Shown here: one piece after another, positions 7,367-33,883 of the stretch
Layout: each line of letters opens with the position of its first letter
Position numbering within the stretch: position 1 is the first letter of the stretch
Assembly (NCBI GenBank): GCA_949299395.1
Contig: CASGAB010000009.1
Span: 1 to 43,710, forward strand
Origin: an uncultured bacterium
GTDB lineage: Bacteria > Bacillota_I > Bacilli_A > RFN20 > CAG-826
Direction: 5' to 3'
Length of the DNA: 43,710 nt
Made by a program: the position numbers and the translations under genes
Notes under the pieces: generated by a model
Seen by the model: the letters and a program-made list of their open reading frames with translations, nothing else
Told to the model about the DNA's origin: nothing
Databases searched by the model: none

Positions 7367-8507
7367 AAAGGTATATCAACAATTTTTAAAGAATTTCAAT
7401 GTTACTATAAAATTTAGCAGCTTAATCTCAGTATTCTTCATTATTATATATGTCTTAATGGTCTTGCTCTTAAGCTTTGCACCTACAATTTTTAGTGATT
7501 TTTTAGGATATATTCTTTTAATGATTATCCTATATTTTTTAGTTAGTTTCCTTTCACCATATTTTTATTCATATTTTGCTAATAATTTAGCCCTTGAAAC
7601 TAAAGATAGCTCTCAAGTTAATATAGTTTCTTTTTTAGGAACAAGAATAATCGGCAAAAGAAGAGGAATTAGAAATATTCAACAACTCTTTAAATGGCTT
7701 TTATGGTCTTATTTAATCTATTTAGTTTTAGAATTAGTAATTGTTTTTATAGTTGTTGGAATCGGTCAAACTATTGAAGGAAGTCAAATAAAAGCTTTTA
7801 TTGAAGAATTTAAAAATATTAATACAATGCTGGGAAATGAGATGTATTTACAAGAATTAACTAATCTAGTTTTAAAATATGAAAAAACCATCGATTTAGT
7901 TTCAGGAATTTCTAATTTTATCGCTGTAAGTGTTGCTTTTTATTTCTTTTTATATAAATTTGCTCGTTCATTTATTAATTTTTATGCAATGCAAGGAGAC
8001 GGAAGATTCGCAATTGCACCATTTTTTATTAATAAATCAGTTAAAAGAACTTTAGCTTTAAAAGAATTTGGTTATAACAAAAATTTCCATATTTTATTAT
8101 TGCCTTATTACATTGGAACAGTTGTTATTTTTTCTGCCTGTTATTTATTAATGTTTTTCTTTTTAAACACAAGTCCAATGTTAAATTCTTTAACTGCTAT
8201 GATTGTAACTGTATTTATACTTTTACCATTTTTACCGGTTATTCTTAACTTTAATATGTTAAATAGCGAAAAATTTAGATTTTATTATTTAAAAACAAGT
8301 AGCGAAGATTTAACTGAAATGTTTAATTCACAAGTTAGTCAACATCAATTCGCTTCAAAAGAAGAAGAGGAAAAGTTTAAAAAAGACTTTGATGATTTTA
8401 ATAATAAAGTTCAAGAAATGCTTAATGAAAATAAAGATAAATTTAACGAAGATAAAAATGACGATAATATAATAGATAATAAAGAAGACGATAAAAAAGA
8501 CGAATAG
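7359..8507 (+). CDS. polytopic membrane protein with acidic tail, unknown function
   Basis: I do not recognise the family. From ATG 7359 the protein is 382 aa, with about six or seven hydrophobic segments: a pair near 15-60, one near 110-135, one near 175-200 and a group near 245-310. The last 60 residues are soluble and highly charged, rich in Glu, Asp, Lys and Asn with poly-acidic stretches, probably facing the cytoplasm. ATG 7359 is preferred because it forms the same ATGATTAA overlap as the oxidoreductase/cdaA pair and has GAAGGA just upstream; ATG 7338 is in frame. It is sandwiched between the NERD protein and another small membrane protein with no gaps, so the three probably form one complex or pathway. 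Confidence 0.6.
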   Translation: MIKKVYQQFLKNFNVTIKFSSLISVFFIIIYVLMVLLLSFAPTIFSDFLGYILLMIILYFLVSFLSPYFYSYFANNLALETKDSSQVNIVSFLGTRIIGKRRGIRNIQQLFKWLLWSYLIYLVLELVIVFIVVGIGQTIEGSQIKAFIEEFKNINTMLGNEMYLQELTNLVLKYEKTIDLVSGISNFIAVSVAFYFFLYKFARSFINFYAMQGDGRFAIAPFFINKSVKRTLALKEFGYNKNFHILLLPYYIGTVVIFSACYLLMFFFLNTSPMLNSLTAMIVTVFILLPFLPVILNFNMLNSEKFRFYYLKTSSEDLTEMFNSQVSQHQFASKEEEEKFKKDFDDFNNKVQEMLNENKDKFNEDKNDDNIIDNKEDDKKDE

Positions 8508-9005: not shown

Positions 9006-9056
9006 TTGTAAAATTATTTTAAATATTATAAAATTAAGTCGGTAAAAAAATACCGA
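9006..9056 (+). promoter_or_regulatory. rex-adhE promoter with CGGTAAAAA start-site element
   Basis: The -35 is TTGTAA (9006-9011) and the -10 is TAAAAT (9029-9034), with a 17-bp spacer. Exactly 5 nt after the -10 begins CGGTAAAAA (9040), covering the expected start site. TCGGTA (9039-9044) and TACCGA (9051-9056) form a 6-bp inverted repeat. The same element at the same spacing recurs at the hydrogenase and glgB promoters. The factor that reads it, if any, is unknown. Confidence 0.65.
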
Positions 9057-9064
9057 ATAGAATT

Positions 9065-9709
9065 ATGAAGACTCAGTTATCAAAAAATCAAATAAGGAGA
9101 CTTCCTGATTATCTAACTTATTTACTCAAAAAAGAAAATGAAAAAGTTGAGTATATATCAACTCTGGAAATTGCTAGAGATTTATCTTTAAATAGCGAAC
9201 AAGTTAAAAAAGATATGCAAGCAATCTCATCTTCTTCAGGAATTCCTAATAAAGGAAGAGAAGTAAATAAGCTCATTAATGATATTCAAAATATCTTAGG
9301 ATATAACGAAAATCATAAAGCGATTTTAGTTGGCTGCGGTTCTTTAGGTAAAGCAATATTAAATTACAATGGATTTAAGGATTATAACCTTGAAATTGCT
9401 GCAGCATTTGATAGTAATAAAGATTTAATAGGTAAAACTATTAACAACATTCCGGTATTTGACGTAGATGATATAAAAGAAAAAAGAAGAGAGTATGACG
9501 CTTCAATTGGAATTATTACTGTTCCAAGTAGTGAGGCACAAGGAATTGCAATCCGTCTTGCCGCTTCTGGAATTGAGGCAATTTGGAATTTTGCACCAAT
9601 AAATTTGGATGTCAACGGTGATGTTATCGTTTCAAATATGAATATGGCTCAATCATTAGCCAGCTTAGCTCATCGTTTGTATATTAAAAAAAATAAAATA
9701 AAGGAGTAA
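9065..9709 (+). CDS. rex: redox-sensing transcriptional repressor Rex, diverged DNA-binding wing
   Basis: A 214-aa protein with Rex architecture: an N-terminal winged helix (about 1-75) and a C-terminal Rossmann domain that senses NADH/NAD+. LVGCGSLGKA gives the GxGxxG loop, and AAFDSNKDLIGKTINNIPVF and IGIITVP follow the family. A C-terminal helix (MAQSLASLAHRL) ends the protein. The recognition region is unusual. After VKKDMQAI, canonical Rex has a glycine/arginine wing (YFGxFGxRGxGY), but this protein has SSSSGIPNKGREV, so its operator may differ from the classical TTGTGA-type site. It lies 8 bp before adhE, a classic Rex target, so it probably autoregulates the operon. The leader lacks a Shine-Dalgarno sequence. 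Confidence 0.88.
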   Translation: MKTQLSKNQIRRLPDYLTYLLKKENEKVEYISTLEIARDLSLNSEQVKKDMQAISSSSGIPNKGREVNKLINDIQNILGYNENHKAILVGCGSLGKAILNYNGFKDYNLEIAAAFDSNKDLIGKTINNIPVFDVDDIKEKRREYDASIGIITVPSSEAQGIAIRLAASGIEAIWNFAPINLDVNGDVIVSNMNMAQSLASLAHRLYIKKNKIKE

Positions 9710-9717
9710 GAAATTAA

Positions 9718-12333
9718 ATGGAAAAAGAATTAGACCCAAAAGCTGTTGCTGAAGTTAATGGCTTAGTTGAAAAAGGTTTAGTTGCCTTAGAAAAATTTCG
9801 TGAATTAAATCAAGAACAAGTAGACTATATCGTTGCTAAAGTTTCTACTAAAGTCTTAGATCAACACGAATATTTAGCACGTTTAGCTATCGAAGAAACA
9901 AAAAGAGGTGTTTTCGAAGATAAATGTACTAAAAACTTATTTGCATGTGAATATGTTGTTAATGCAATGAGACATTTAAAAACTTGTGGAATTATTTCTG
10001 ATGACCCAGTTACTGGTGTTACAGAAGTTGCTGATCCACTTGGTGTTATTGCTGGTGTTACTCCTGTTACAAACCCAACATCAACAACAATCTTTAAATG
10101 TTTAATCGCTTTAAAAACAAGAAACCCAATTATCTTTGGTTTCCACCCAAATGCACAAAATTGTTCAGTTGAAACAGCAAAAATCATTCACAAAGCAGCT
10201 GTTGAAGCTGGTGCTCCAGAAAACTGTGTTCAATGGATTGAACATCCATCATTAGATGCAACAACAGCATTAATGCATCACGAAGGCGTTGCTTGTATTT
10301 TAGCTACAGGTGGCAACGCAATGGTTACAGCAGCTTATAGTTGTGGTAAACCTGCATTAGGTGTTGGTGCTGGTAACGTCCCTGCATATGTTGAAAAAAC
10401 TGCAAATGTTGCTCAAGCAGCAAATGATATTTTAATGTCAAAGGCATTCGATAATGGTATGGTTTGTGCTTCAGAACAAGCTGCTATTGTTGATAAAGAA
10501 ATTTACGACGAATTCGTCAAAAATATTAAAAGATATGGTGCATATATGTGTAACAAGCAAGAAAAAGAAATGCTTGAAAAATATATGTTCAGACCTACAA
10601 AAGATGGTAAATCAACTGCATTATTTGCTGGTTTAGTTGGCCATCCAGCTTGGGAAATTGCTCATGAAGCTGGTTTTGAAGTACCAAAAGAAACTCCAAT
10701 CTTATTAGTTGAATGTTCAAAAGTTGGTATGGATGAACCATTAACAAGAGAAAAATTATCACCAGTCTTAGCTCTTATTAAAGCTAAAGATTCAAAACAA
10801 GGTGTTGATCTTGCTGAAAGCATGGTTGAACTCGGTGGTTTAGGTCACTCAGCTTGTATCCATACAGCAGATAAAGCTTTAGTTGATGAATTCGGCAAGA
10901 GATTAAAAGCATGTAGAATTATTTGGAACTCTCCAACAACATTCGGTGGTATCGGTAATATTTATAACTCATTCCTTCCATCAATGACTTTAGGTTGTGG
11001 TTCATACGGACACAACTCAGTTAGTGGTAACGTTAGTGCTATTAATTTAATTAATATTAAAAGAATTGGTAAGAGGAGAAATAACATGCAATGGTTTAAA
11101 GTTCCAAGCAAGATCTATTTTGAAAGAAATAGTGTTCAATATTTAAAAGATGCTAAAAACCTCAATAAAGCATTCATTGTTACTGACCAATCAATGGTCC
11201 AATTAGGCTTCTTACAAAAGGTTTTAGATCAATTACAATTGAGAAGAAATGACGTTCAAATTCAATTATTTACAAACGTCGAACCAGATCCAGATATCAC
11301 AACAGTCAAAAAAGGTGCTGAAATGATGAGAGGATTTGAACCTGATACAATTATTGCTTTAGGTGGTGGTTCAGCAATGGACGCAGCTAAAGGTATGTGG
11401 TTATATTATGAAAATCCAGAAGTTAACTTTGATGATTTAAAACAAAAATTCATGGATATTAGAAAGAGAGCATTTAGATATCCAGAATTAGGTAAAAAAT
11501 CAAAATTAATCTGTATCCCAACAACTTCAGGTACAGGTAGTGAAGTCACTCCATTCGCAGTTATTTCTGATAGAGCAAATTCTAAGAAATATCCATTAAC
11601 TGACTACACATTAACTCCAACAATAGCTATTATCGATCCAGAGTTTACAACTAACTTACCTCCAAAAGTTACAGCTGATACAGGTTTAGACGTTTTAACT
11701 CATGCTCTTGAAGCATACGTTTCAATGTTAGCTAGTGATTATACAGATGCATTAGCAATTCAAGCAATTCAAATGGTCTTCGAATATTTACCAAGATGTG
11801 TTAAAAACGGTAAAAACGATCTTGAAGCTAGAGAAAAAATGCACAACGCTTCAACAATGGCAGGTATGGCATTCGCTAACGCATTCTTAGGTATGTGTCA
11901 CTCAATGGCTCATAAGATTGGTGGTCAATTCCATGTTGTCCATGGTAGAGCTAATGCAACATTATTACCATTCGTCGTTAGATATAATGGTGAAGTCCCA
12001 CAAAAATTAGGTACATGGCCAAAATATAATGTCTACGATGCTGATAAACGTTATGCAAAAATCGCAAGATTACTTGGTTTAAAAGCTAAAACAGATGCTG
12101 AAGGTGTTAAATCACTAGCAGACGCTATTTATAAACTCGGTATTGAATGTGGTGAAGCAATGAACTTCAAATCAGAAGGCATCGATCAAAAAGAATGGTT
12201 CGATAAAGCTGAAGAATTAGCTTATCTCGCATTCGAAGATCAATGTACACCATGTAACCCACGTATTCCTCTTGTTAAAGATATGACTCAAATCTTAAAA
12301 GATGCATACGAAGGTTATAATCCAGAAAAATAG
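9718..12333 (+). CDS. adhE: bifunctional acetaldehyde-CoA/alcohol dehydrogenase AdhE
   Basis: An 871-aa fusion that reduces acetyl-CoA to acetaldehyde and then to ethanol, oxidising two NADH. The aldehyde dehydrogenase half (about 1-440) has the active-site Cys250 in NGMVCASEQ and the nucleotide loop GVGAGNVP. The iron-dependent alcohol dehydrogenase half starts near 457. It has GGGSAMDAAKG (about 549), TTSGTGSEVTPF, and iron ligands Asp658, His662, His728 and His742, with the same spacing as E. coli AdhE. A good AAGGAG ribosome site overlaps the end of rex. At the domain junction, a strong AAGAGGAG site stands 7 nt before in-frame ATG 11086 (Met457), which could yield a free alcohol dehydrogenase domain. 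Confidence 0.97.
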   Translation: MEKELDPKAVAEVNGLVEKGLVALEKFRELNQEQVDYIVAKVSTKVLDQHEYLARLAIEETKRGVFEDKCTKNLFACEYVVNAMRHLKTCGIISDDPVTGVTEVADPLGVIAGVTPVTNPTSTTIFKCLIALKTRNPIIFGFHPNAQNCSVETAKIIHKAAVEAGAPENCVQWIEHPSLDATTALMHHEGVACILATGGNAMVTAAYSCGKPALGVGAGNVPAYVEKTANVAQAANDILMSKAFDNGMVCASEQAAIVDKEIYDEFVKNIKRYGAYMCNKQEKEMLEKYMFRPTKDGKSTALFAGLVGHPAWEIAHEAGFEVPKETPILLVECSKVGMDEPLTREKLSPVLALIKAKDSKQGVDLAESMVELGGLGHSACIHTADKALVDEFGKRLKACRIIWNSPTTFGGIGNIYNSFLPSMTLGCGSYGHNSVSGNVSAINLINIKRIGKRRNNMQWFKVPSKIYFERNSVQYLKDAKNLNKAFIVTDQSMVQLGFLQKVLDQLQLRRNDVQIQLFTNVEPDPDITTVKKGAEMMRGFEPDTIIALGGGSAMDAAKGMWLYYENPEVNFDDLKQKFMDIRKRAFRYPELGKKSKLICIPTTSGTGSEVTPFAVISDRANSKKYPLTDYTLTPTIAIIDPEFTTNLPPKVTADTGLDVLTHALEAYVSMLASDYTDALAIQAIQMVFEYLPRCVKNGKNDLEAREKMHNASTMAGMAFANAFLGMCHSMAHKIGGQFHVVHGRANATLLPFVVRYNGEVPQKLGTWPKYNVYDADKRYAKIARLLGLKAKTDAEGVKSLADAIYKLGIECGEAMNFKSEGIDQKEWFDKAEELAYLAFEDQCTPCNPRIPLVKDMTQILKDAYEGYNPEK

Positions 12334-12380: not shown

Positions 12381-12560
12381 TATTAAGATTGTATTAATTT
12401 TCATCAATTTTTGCATAAAATTGATCTCTCGTTACATTCCTGTATATAACAGGTGATATATACAAGGGGTGGTGGGGAGATCCATTTTATAAATAAAATT
12501 AGGAACGTAACCCCATTCCTATTTTATTTATATGTCGGATTTTTTTATTTTTTTTAAAAT
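12381..12560 (+). ncRNA. possible small RNA or hairpin-rich island (uncertain)
   Basis: Three further inverted repeats follow the adhE terminator. ATCAATTTT/AAAATTGAT has a 5-nt loop (12403-12425). CCTGT/ACAGG has a 5-nt loop (12439-12453). A 16-bp arm pair with one bulge lies at about 12488-12534. Between the last two sits GGGGTGGTGGGG (12466-12477), striking in such AT-rich DNA. The last stem is followed by T-rich sequence. Read on the plus strand, this could be a structured RNA antisense to the end of the PHP gene. No family is recognised and no convincing promoter is seen. Confidence 0.25.
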
Positions 12561-13359
12561 CTAATTCTTTTATAATTTCTTCTTCACTAATTCCTGTTTC
12601 CTTTAAAAATTTATCAAAGTAATCATAATTGATTTTTTCAAAATCCATTATTGCATGTGCATCAACTCCAAAGATAAATTTATTTCCAATTTCTTTAGCT
12701 TTTTTAAAGAAATATGGAGAAGGATAGTGCAGGCATCCAAATTTCATAGCGGTATATTTATTATTTGTATCACCATTTATATTTATTTCTAAAGGTATGT
12801 CTTTTCTTTTTGCTGCTAAACAAATTTCTTCAATTATTTGATCAATTTCAGGAGTAATAGTAGTTATACGATTAAAGAATAAATCAGGATGAGCTACATA
12901 ATTAAAATATCCTGACTTAATTCCTTTGATTAAGTCGTTTTTATATTTAATTAAACCTTTTAAATAATCATTTTGATGGAAGTAGTAGCAAAAATTATTA
13001 TTTTTATCATAATAACAGTGTTGACCAATAATCATGTAATCTAAGCCGTATTTATCGTAAAGTTCTTTATAATAATTATCTCTATCTTCGATATATTCGA
13101 TTTCTAAACCAATAAAAATGTTAATCTTATCTTTATATTTTTCATTTAATTTTCTTAAAGAATTCAAATAATCTGGAAAATCTTCATCAAAAGACATTCT
13201 CATTGATTCATGAGTAACATTTTTAAAAGGAGCATGATCACTAAAACCAAGGTTTTTATAACCATGTTCAATTGCTTTTAAAACATATTCCTCATCTTCG
13301 TTATAAGCGTGTCCGCATCTTTTAGTATGAGTATGATAATTTGAAATTAACTTTTTCAT
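12499..13359 (-). CDS. PHP-domain phosphatase, histidinol-phosphatase (HisJ/HisK) family
   Basis: A 286-aa metal-dependent phosphoesterase. The PHP metal ligands are all visible: NYHTHTKRCGHA at the N-terminus, GFSDHAPF, GLEIEYIED, MIIGQHCY, VAHPDLFF and FGVDAHA near the end. This is the HisJ/HisK-type family that removes phosphate from histidinol-phosphate. No other his gene is in the window, so the substrate could be another phosphate ester. The gene faces adhE, and its last codons lie inside a long hairpin (12488-12534). The start has no ribosome site. A TAAAAT on the minus strand (13376-13371) leaves only about 5 nt of leader. Confidence 0.85.
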   Translation of the reverse strand: MKKLISNYHTHTKRCGHAYNEDEEYVLKAIEHGYKNLGFSDHAPFKNVTHESMRMSFDEDFPDYLNSLRKLNEKYKDKINIFIGLEIEYIEDRDNYYKELYDKYGLDYMIIGQHCYYDKNNNFCYYFHQNDYLKGLIKYKNDLIKGIKSGYFNYVAHPDLFFNRITTITPEIDQIIEEICLAAKRKDIPLEININGDTNNKYTAMKFGCLHYPSPYFFKKAKEIGNKFIFGVDAHAIMDFEKINYDYFDKFLKETGISEEEIIKELDFKKNKKIRHINKIGMGLRS

Positions 13360-13415: not shown

Positions 13416-13438
13416 TTTATCAAATATAATTTGATAAA
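13416..13438. promoter_or_regulatory. perfect dyad operator candidate in the hydrogenase promoter
   Basis: TTTATCAAAT (13416-13425) and ATTTGATAAA (13429-13438) are perfect 10-bp arms around the 3-nt spacer ATA. A third half-site, TTGATA, lies at 13408-13413. The dyad fills the -35/-10 spacer and overlaps the -10 (13435-13440) of the hydrogenase gene, a position expected for a repressor. It lies between two divergent genes. The binding protein is unknown. Confidence 0.55.
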
Positions 13439-13454
13439 ATATTACCGGTAAAAA
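13435..13454 (+). promoter_or_regulatory. hydrogenase -10 and CGGTAAAAA start-site element
   Basis: TAAAAT (13435-13440) is followed, after exactly 5 nt, by CGGTAAAAA (13446-13454) at the expected start site. Around it, TTACCGGTAA is a perfect 10-bp palindrome. Rex-adhE and glgB have the same element at the same distance. Confidence 0.6.
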
Positions 13455-33863: not shown

Positions 33864-33883
33864 TATAATATTTACGGTAAAAA
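33864..33883 (+). promoter_or_regulatory. glgB promoter with CGGTAAAAA start-site element
   Basis: TATAAT (33864-33869) is followed after exactly 5 nt by CGGTAAAAA (33875-33883). AATATTT (about 33867-33873) and AAATATT flank it as an inverted repeat. The -35 is poor, hinting at an activator. The same layout occurs at rex-adhE and the hydrogenase. Confidence 0.6.

Follow-up and report, generated by a model that had tools for sequence, protein, structure and literature searches.

In Gram-positive fermenters, Rex is the main NADH/NAD+ sensor. Its regulons are commonly predicted by scanning for a TTGTGA or TTGTTA motif. Known Rex operators have the form TTGTGA-N6-TCACAA, with TTGTGAAW4TTCACAA in Staphylococcus and TTGTTAANNNNTTAACAA in Clostridiaceae, and specificity is set by the DNA-reading residues Arg48, Lys49, Arg60, Gly61 and Tyr64 of the protein. 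In the T. maritima complex, the wing contacts the outer two T of the arm through Arg60 and Gly61, in the minor groove; the G at arm position 3 is contacted by Arg48, positions 5 and 6 by Lys49, and the backbone by Tyr64 (PMC8836258).

The stretch of DNA analysed here (43,710 nt, hereafter the window) carries at its rex-adhE promoter a perfect palindrome, TCGGTA-AAAAAA-TACCGA (positions 9039–9056, not assigned to a strand). Its layout is that of the TTGTGA-N6-TCACAA operators, an 18 bp inverted repeat with two 6 bp arms and a 6 bp AT-rich centre, and sites of this type likewise occur in the promoters of rex, adhE, gap and further alcohol dehydrogenase genes. The arm has in common with TTGTGA the G at position 3 (mostly) and the A at position 6, but positions 2, 4 and 5 of TCGGTA (variants TCAGTA and TTGGTA) hold C, G and T instead. 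We therefore propose that the palindrome, which has neither a TTGTGA nor a TTGTTA arm, is not a canonical Rex operator but the putative operator of a variant Rex. An earlier reading of the window, the original prediction, had remarked that no element of this kind was described; this holds for the arm, but the layout is the familiar one of Rex operators. A literature search found no description of TCGATA sites (see below), or of any Rex motif in Mollicutes or Erysipelotrichia, in the sources covered, which lie outside the main comparative Rex-motif study (Ravcheev 2012), where related motifs may be shown.

The predicted variant Rex and the palindrome upstream of rex-adhE

The rex gene (9065–9709, + strand) starts with an ATG 8 nt 3' of the palindrome. 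The adhE gene (9718–12333, + strand), which specifies a bifunctional aldehyde/alcohol dehydrogenase with Pfam domains Aldedh, Fe-ADH and ADH_Fe_C, begins 8 nt past rex, and the two are likely to form one operon. In the window, a PHP-domain gene on the minus strand (12499–13359) sits between adhE and the hydrogenase gene (hydA); in some congeners, hydA comes directly after rex-adhE, past a terminator-like hairpin.

The rex product has the domain architecture of the family, with PF06971 (Put_DNA-bind_N, 39.5 bits) at the N-terminus and PF02629 (CoA_binding, the NAD-binding Rossmann domain, 81.3 bits) at the C-terminus, a score of 233.5 bits against the NCBIfam Rex equivalog NF003994 (cut-off 130), and an AlphaFold model (pLDDT 91.8) whose best PDB match is a Rex-operator-NAD+ complex. 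Like the Rex proteins of T. ethanolicus (3WGI), T. maritima (7WB3) and S. agalactiae (3KET), to which it is about 31–34% identical with a full-length structural match, it joins a winged-helix to a Rossmann domain. Unlike them, it has a one-residue insertion before the wing, and their FGEFGKRGVGY is replaced by SSSSGIPNKGR (variant wing GIPNKGR). The canonical set of DNA-reading residues is not preserved: in T. maritima numbering, Lys49 is retained, while Arg48 is replaced by Lys, Arg60 by Pro, Gly61 by Asn and Tyr64 by Arg. Position 48 is Lys in the window's species and Arg in most congeners; the Pro at the Arg60 position and the Arg at the Tyr64 position are invariant. Because the equivalog model accepts the protein and its DNA-reading residues are changed, we file it as a predicted variant Rex and not as a canonical one.

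A -10-like hexamer, TAAAAT, was read from the sequence at 9029–9034 (+ strand), which places the palindrome at about -3 to +15, across the predicted transcription start. Scored by a matrix derived from rex sites, the palindrome reaches 26.1, the highest value in the window. Rex matches were found in 23 of the 26 genomes of the genus, which appears to be the Candidatus Onthovivens group since one locus with this Rex belongs to Candidatus Onthovivens merdipullorum. Nearly all congeners with an ordinary rex carry the palindrome about 20–31 nt 5' of the gene (starts were taken as the nearest Met, and distances may err by a few codons), down to 46% Rex identity and even where the flanking DNA differs; it is also conserved in most of the family. 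Variants among congeners are symmetric, with TCAGTA/TACTGA arms and with ATTAAA or ATAATT centres. Two genomes (G011 and G015) have imperfect copies only, with a degraded left arm (AAGGTAAAAAAATACCGA), and in a third (G004), where rex is diverged, the palindrome was not found upstream of the gene. The same genome (rex at L026 and L027) has a perfect TCGGTA-N6-TACCGA 45 nt 5' of an unrelated FAD/NAD oxidoreductase gene (G004:C3:84950, L233); the region appears on two contigs of the assembly.

Taken with the neighbouring rex gene, the same palindrome before further fermentation genes and the link between arm and wing (both described below), the form, position and conservation of the palindrome make it very probable that it serves as a variant autoregulatory operator of the Rex encoded just downstream. 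Going by other Rex systems, from which DNA binding, the NADH response, repression and the start site are extrapolated, the most likely course is that at high NAD+ relative to NADH a Rex dimer would occupy 9039–9056, including the transcription start, and rex-adhE would be repressed. A build-up of NADH would release Rex, AdhE would be made, and ethanol formation would then regenerate NAD+. For gut Bacilli known from metagenomes alone, this would supply a concrete candidate redox switch for ethanol formation.

Copies of the left-arm motif at the hydA and glgB promoters

At rex-adhE, the left half of the palindrome is formed by CGGTAAAAA, which the original prediction had picked out as an element common to three promoters, those of rex-adhE, the hydrogenase and glgB. 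Its letters and spacing were confirmed: on the + strand, CGGTAAAAA starts at 9040, 13446 and 33875, each time 5 nt after a -10-like hexamer (TAAAAT, TAAAAT or TATAAT). Further copies of the 9-mer lie at 8229–8237 (minus strand) and at 11808, within adhE; the shuffled window would be expected to hold 0.44 matches, a figure for a motif that was picked post hoc, after it had been sighted. The genome search suggested as a check went against the proposal, as TANNNTN5CGGTAAAAA has three matches in the 1.24 Mb genome (39 contigs), all within the window, versus two for the backwards control. The two matches away from rex are thus unremarkable genome-wide, and the three-promoter coincidence is suggestive solely through its clustering in one window.

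The three copies are not one element. At rex, CGGTAAAAA belongs to an arm of the perfect palindrome, at hydA it lies within TTACCGGTAA, and at glgB it stands without a second arm. Comparison with related genomes, another check that had been suggested, separated the promoters in the same way: the rex site is conserved, but the CGGTAAAAA copies of the hydA promoter (13446–13454, + strand) and the glgB promoter (33875–33883, + strand) are absent from the closest congeners, although the -10 region is recognisable and the coding regions persist (hydrogenase 83–84% and GlgB 94–96% identical). Three matches within 43.7 kb, all at one distance from the -10, could still point to a new start-site element for RNA polymerase or for an unknown regulator. 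We regard this as extremely improbable given that loss, a control pattern about as frequent in the genome, and a conservation at rex that extends to the second arm, which hydA and glgB lack. Of the proposed common regulator or start-site control, a regulator that acts at the start is well supported for rex-adhE, with its palindrome conserved in genus and family and present before other fermentation genes.

At glgB, the rex-site matrix detected no operator above background (p = 0.085), and the CGGTAAAAA copy there is a chance resemblance. At the hydrogenase promoter, the same matrix gives the second-best match in the window, TTGATA-AAATAT-TACCGG (13431–13448, not assigned to a strand), which overlaps the -10 and scores 11.2, far below the rex site. 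It includes the minus-strand reading of CCGGTA, so its register differs from that of the proposed CGGTAAAAA element, and the CGGTAAAAA copy at hydA is a coincidence or at best a piece of a weak, lineage-specific Rex site. It is possible, at somewhat less than even chances, that hydA is a second Rex target in the window's species through 13431–13448, which would add to the Rex-operator reading of the rex-adhE site. In favour are the rank of the site and its p of about 0.0023 per 200 bp promoter, as well as the adjacency of hydA to rex-adhE in some congeners and the fact that hydrogenases are known Rex targets (PMC8457756). Against it count several mismatches to the consensus and the absence of the weak site from three congeners (G016, G018 and G021); the closest congeners do not conserve it.

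Palindromes before unlinked genes

An exact search for TYRGTAW6TACYRA in the 26 genomes retrieved rex and also intergenic sites before several other genes, namely those for an iron-containing alcohol dehydrogenase (Fe-ADH), GAPDH, pyruvate phosphate dikinase and an FAD-type oxidoreductase, names that were assigned by eye from the predicted proteins. Of 22 congeners, 7 had a site at 11/12 or better at the unlinked Fe-ADH promoter (0.05 expected); relatives are not independent, and these matches represent about five lineages. The corresponding figures are 3/23 for GAPDH (0.20 expected) and 1/24 for glgB (0.15 expected), and none of 24 hydA promoters had a site at this threshold (0.10 expected). 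Since it precedes unlinked fermentation genes (Fe-ADH, GAPDH) in several congeners, the palindrome looks like an operator that would be read in trans. The Fe-ADH site lies just 5' of the -35 and not at the start, a position that fits plain repression less obviously, and it may act differently from the site at rex.

A scan of the window's genome for TCGGTA-N6-TACCGA with two mismatches allowed returned fewer matches than the backwards control. The only other exact match of the TYRGTA type in that genome is TTAGTATTTTAATACTAA on contig 1, and the regulon there may therefore consist of rex-adhE alone. Matches (GTGGTAAAAAAGAACCGA) 5' of Fe-ADH in the clade to which the window's genome belongs were excluded, as they lie within the apparent terminator of the upstream gene. 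In this clade, at L266 and its relatives, GTGGTA...TACCAC followed by a T-run occurs about 125 nt before Fe-ADH; this is probably a terminator that resembles a Rex site by chance, or that has absorbed one.

Wing types and operator arms

Three main wing types were recognised among 141 Rex proteins drawn from the genus, family, order, class and other phyla, and the counts that follow depend on wing classes and motif thresholds hand-set on the same data and on shuffle expectations matched for composition, not kinship. With a canonical or canonical-like wing (GxxGxGY), TTGTKA matches of at least 10/12 were present in 10 of 23 (1.8 expected), a weak signal. With the wing GRPKxG[FYH] (P-F/Y class), found in Acidobacteria, Deltaproteobacteria, Clostridia and others, TCGATA-N6-TATCGA matches of at least 11/12 were present in 16 of 59 (0.0 expected). 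The window's protein has the third type, PxxGR (P-R class), in which TYRGTA-N6-TACYRA was present at 11/12 or better in 39 of 50 (0.67 expected). The same motif and threshold gave 0/32 at rex promoters with canonical or other wings, and the classic Rex motif at 11/12 was not observed in the P-R class (0.3 expected). Nearly all P-R proteins fall in one clade (support 100/97) that includes the genus and the greater part of its family; one outside it (L143, Izimaplasma) occurs with TCGATA.

In the window's system, C replaces T at arm position 2, and a Pro aligns with Arg60. It is likely that TCGGTA takes the place of TTGTGA due to the changed wing (Arg60-Gly61 to Pro-Asn, Tyr64 to Arg), as judged from the aligned proteins and sites. 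The palindrome might instead fold into a hairpin in the rex-adhE mRNA, at its 5' end, and control stability or translation, given that it lies within the short predicted leader and that pairing is preserved in variants such as TCAGTA/TACTGA. However, transcripts from the Fe-ADH promoter would not include the copy 5' of the -35, the promoters of related Rex classes contain overlapping arrays with a 14 bp period, and the arm sequence tracks the wing type beyond mere pairing, so that we consider a hairpin role very unlikely. A similarly low probability attaches to the palindrome being the operator of another regulator, with a merely historical link to rex. Binding by Rex is a prediction, and the G004 site is located away from rex, but the 18 bp layout is as in Rex sites, the targets are ones typically seen for Rex, and across the tree the type of operator goes with the type of wing.

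We think it probable, though less firmly so than for the rex-adhE site itself, that there are at least three Rex specificity classes in which the arm (TTGTKA, TCGATA or TYRGTA) tracks the wing, that the window belongs to the most derived of them, and that standard Rex-motif scans therefore overlook the regulons of large groups of gut Bacilli, Clostridia, Acidobacteria and Deltaproteobacteria. If whole clades do use TCGATA or TCGGTA, predictions with TTGTGA or TTGTTA would miss real sites and return false ones. Wing and operator changing together would also provide a natural mutagenesis series for specificity set by a wing that reads the minor groove.

In the P-F/Y class, rex is often preceded by operators that overlap in twos or threes, as TCGATA-N6-TATCGATA-N6-TATCGA, with a 14 bp period and TATCGATA in common. 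Such overlapping operators stand upstream of rex at L187, L189, L190, L195, L200, L204, L207 and L331, and their arrangement suggests stacked Rex dimers.
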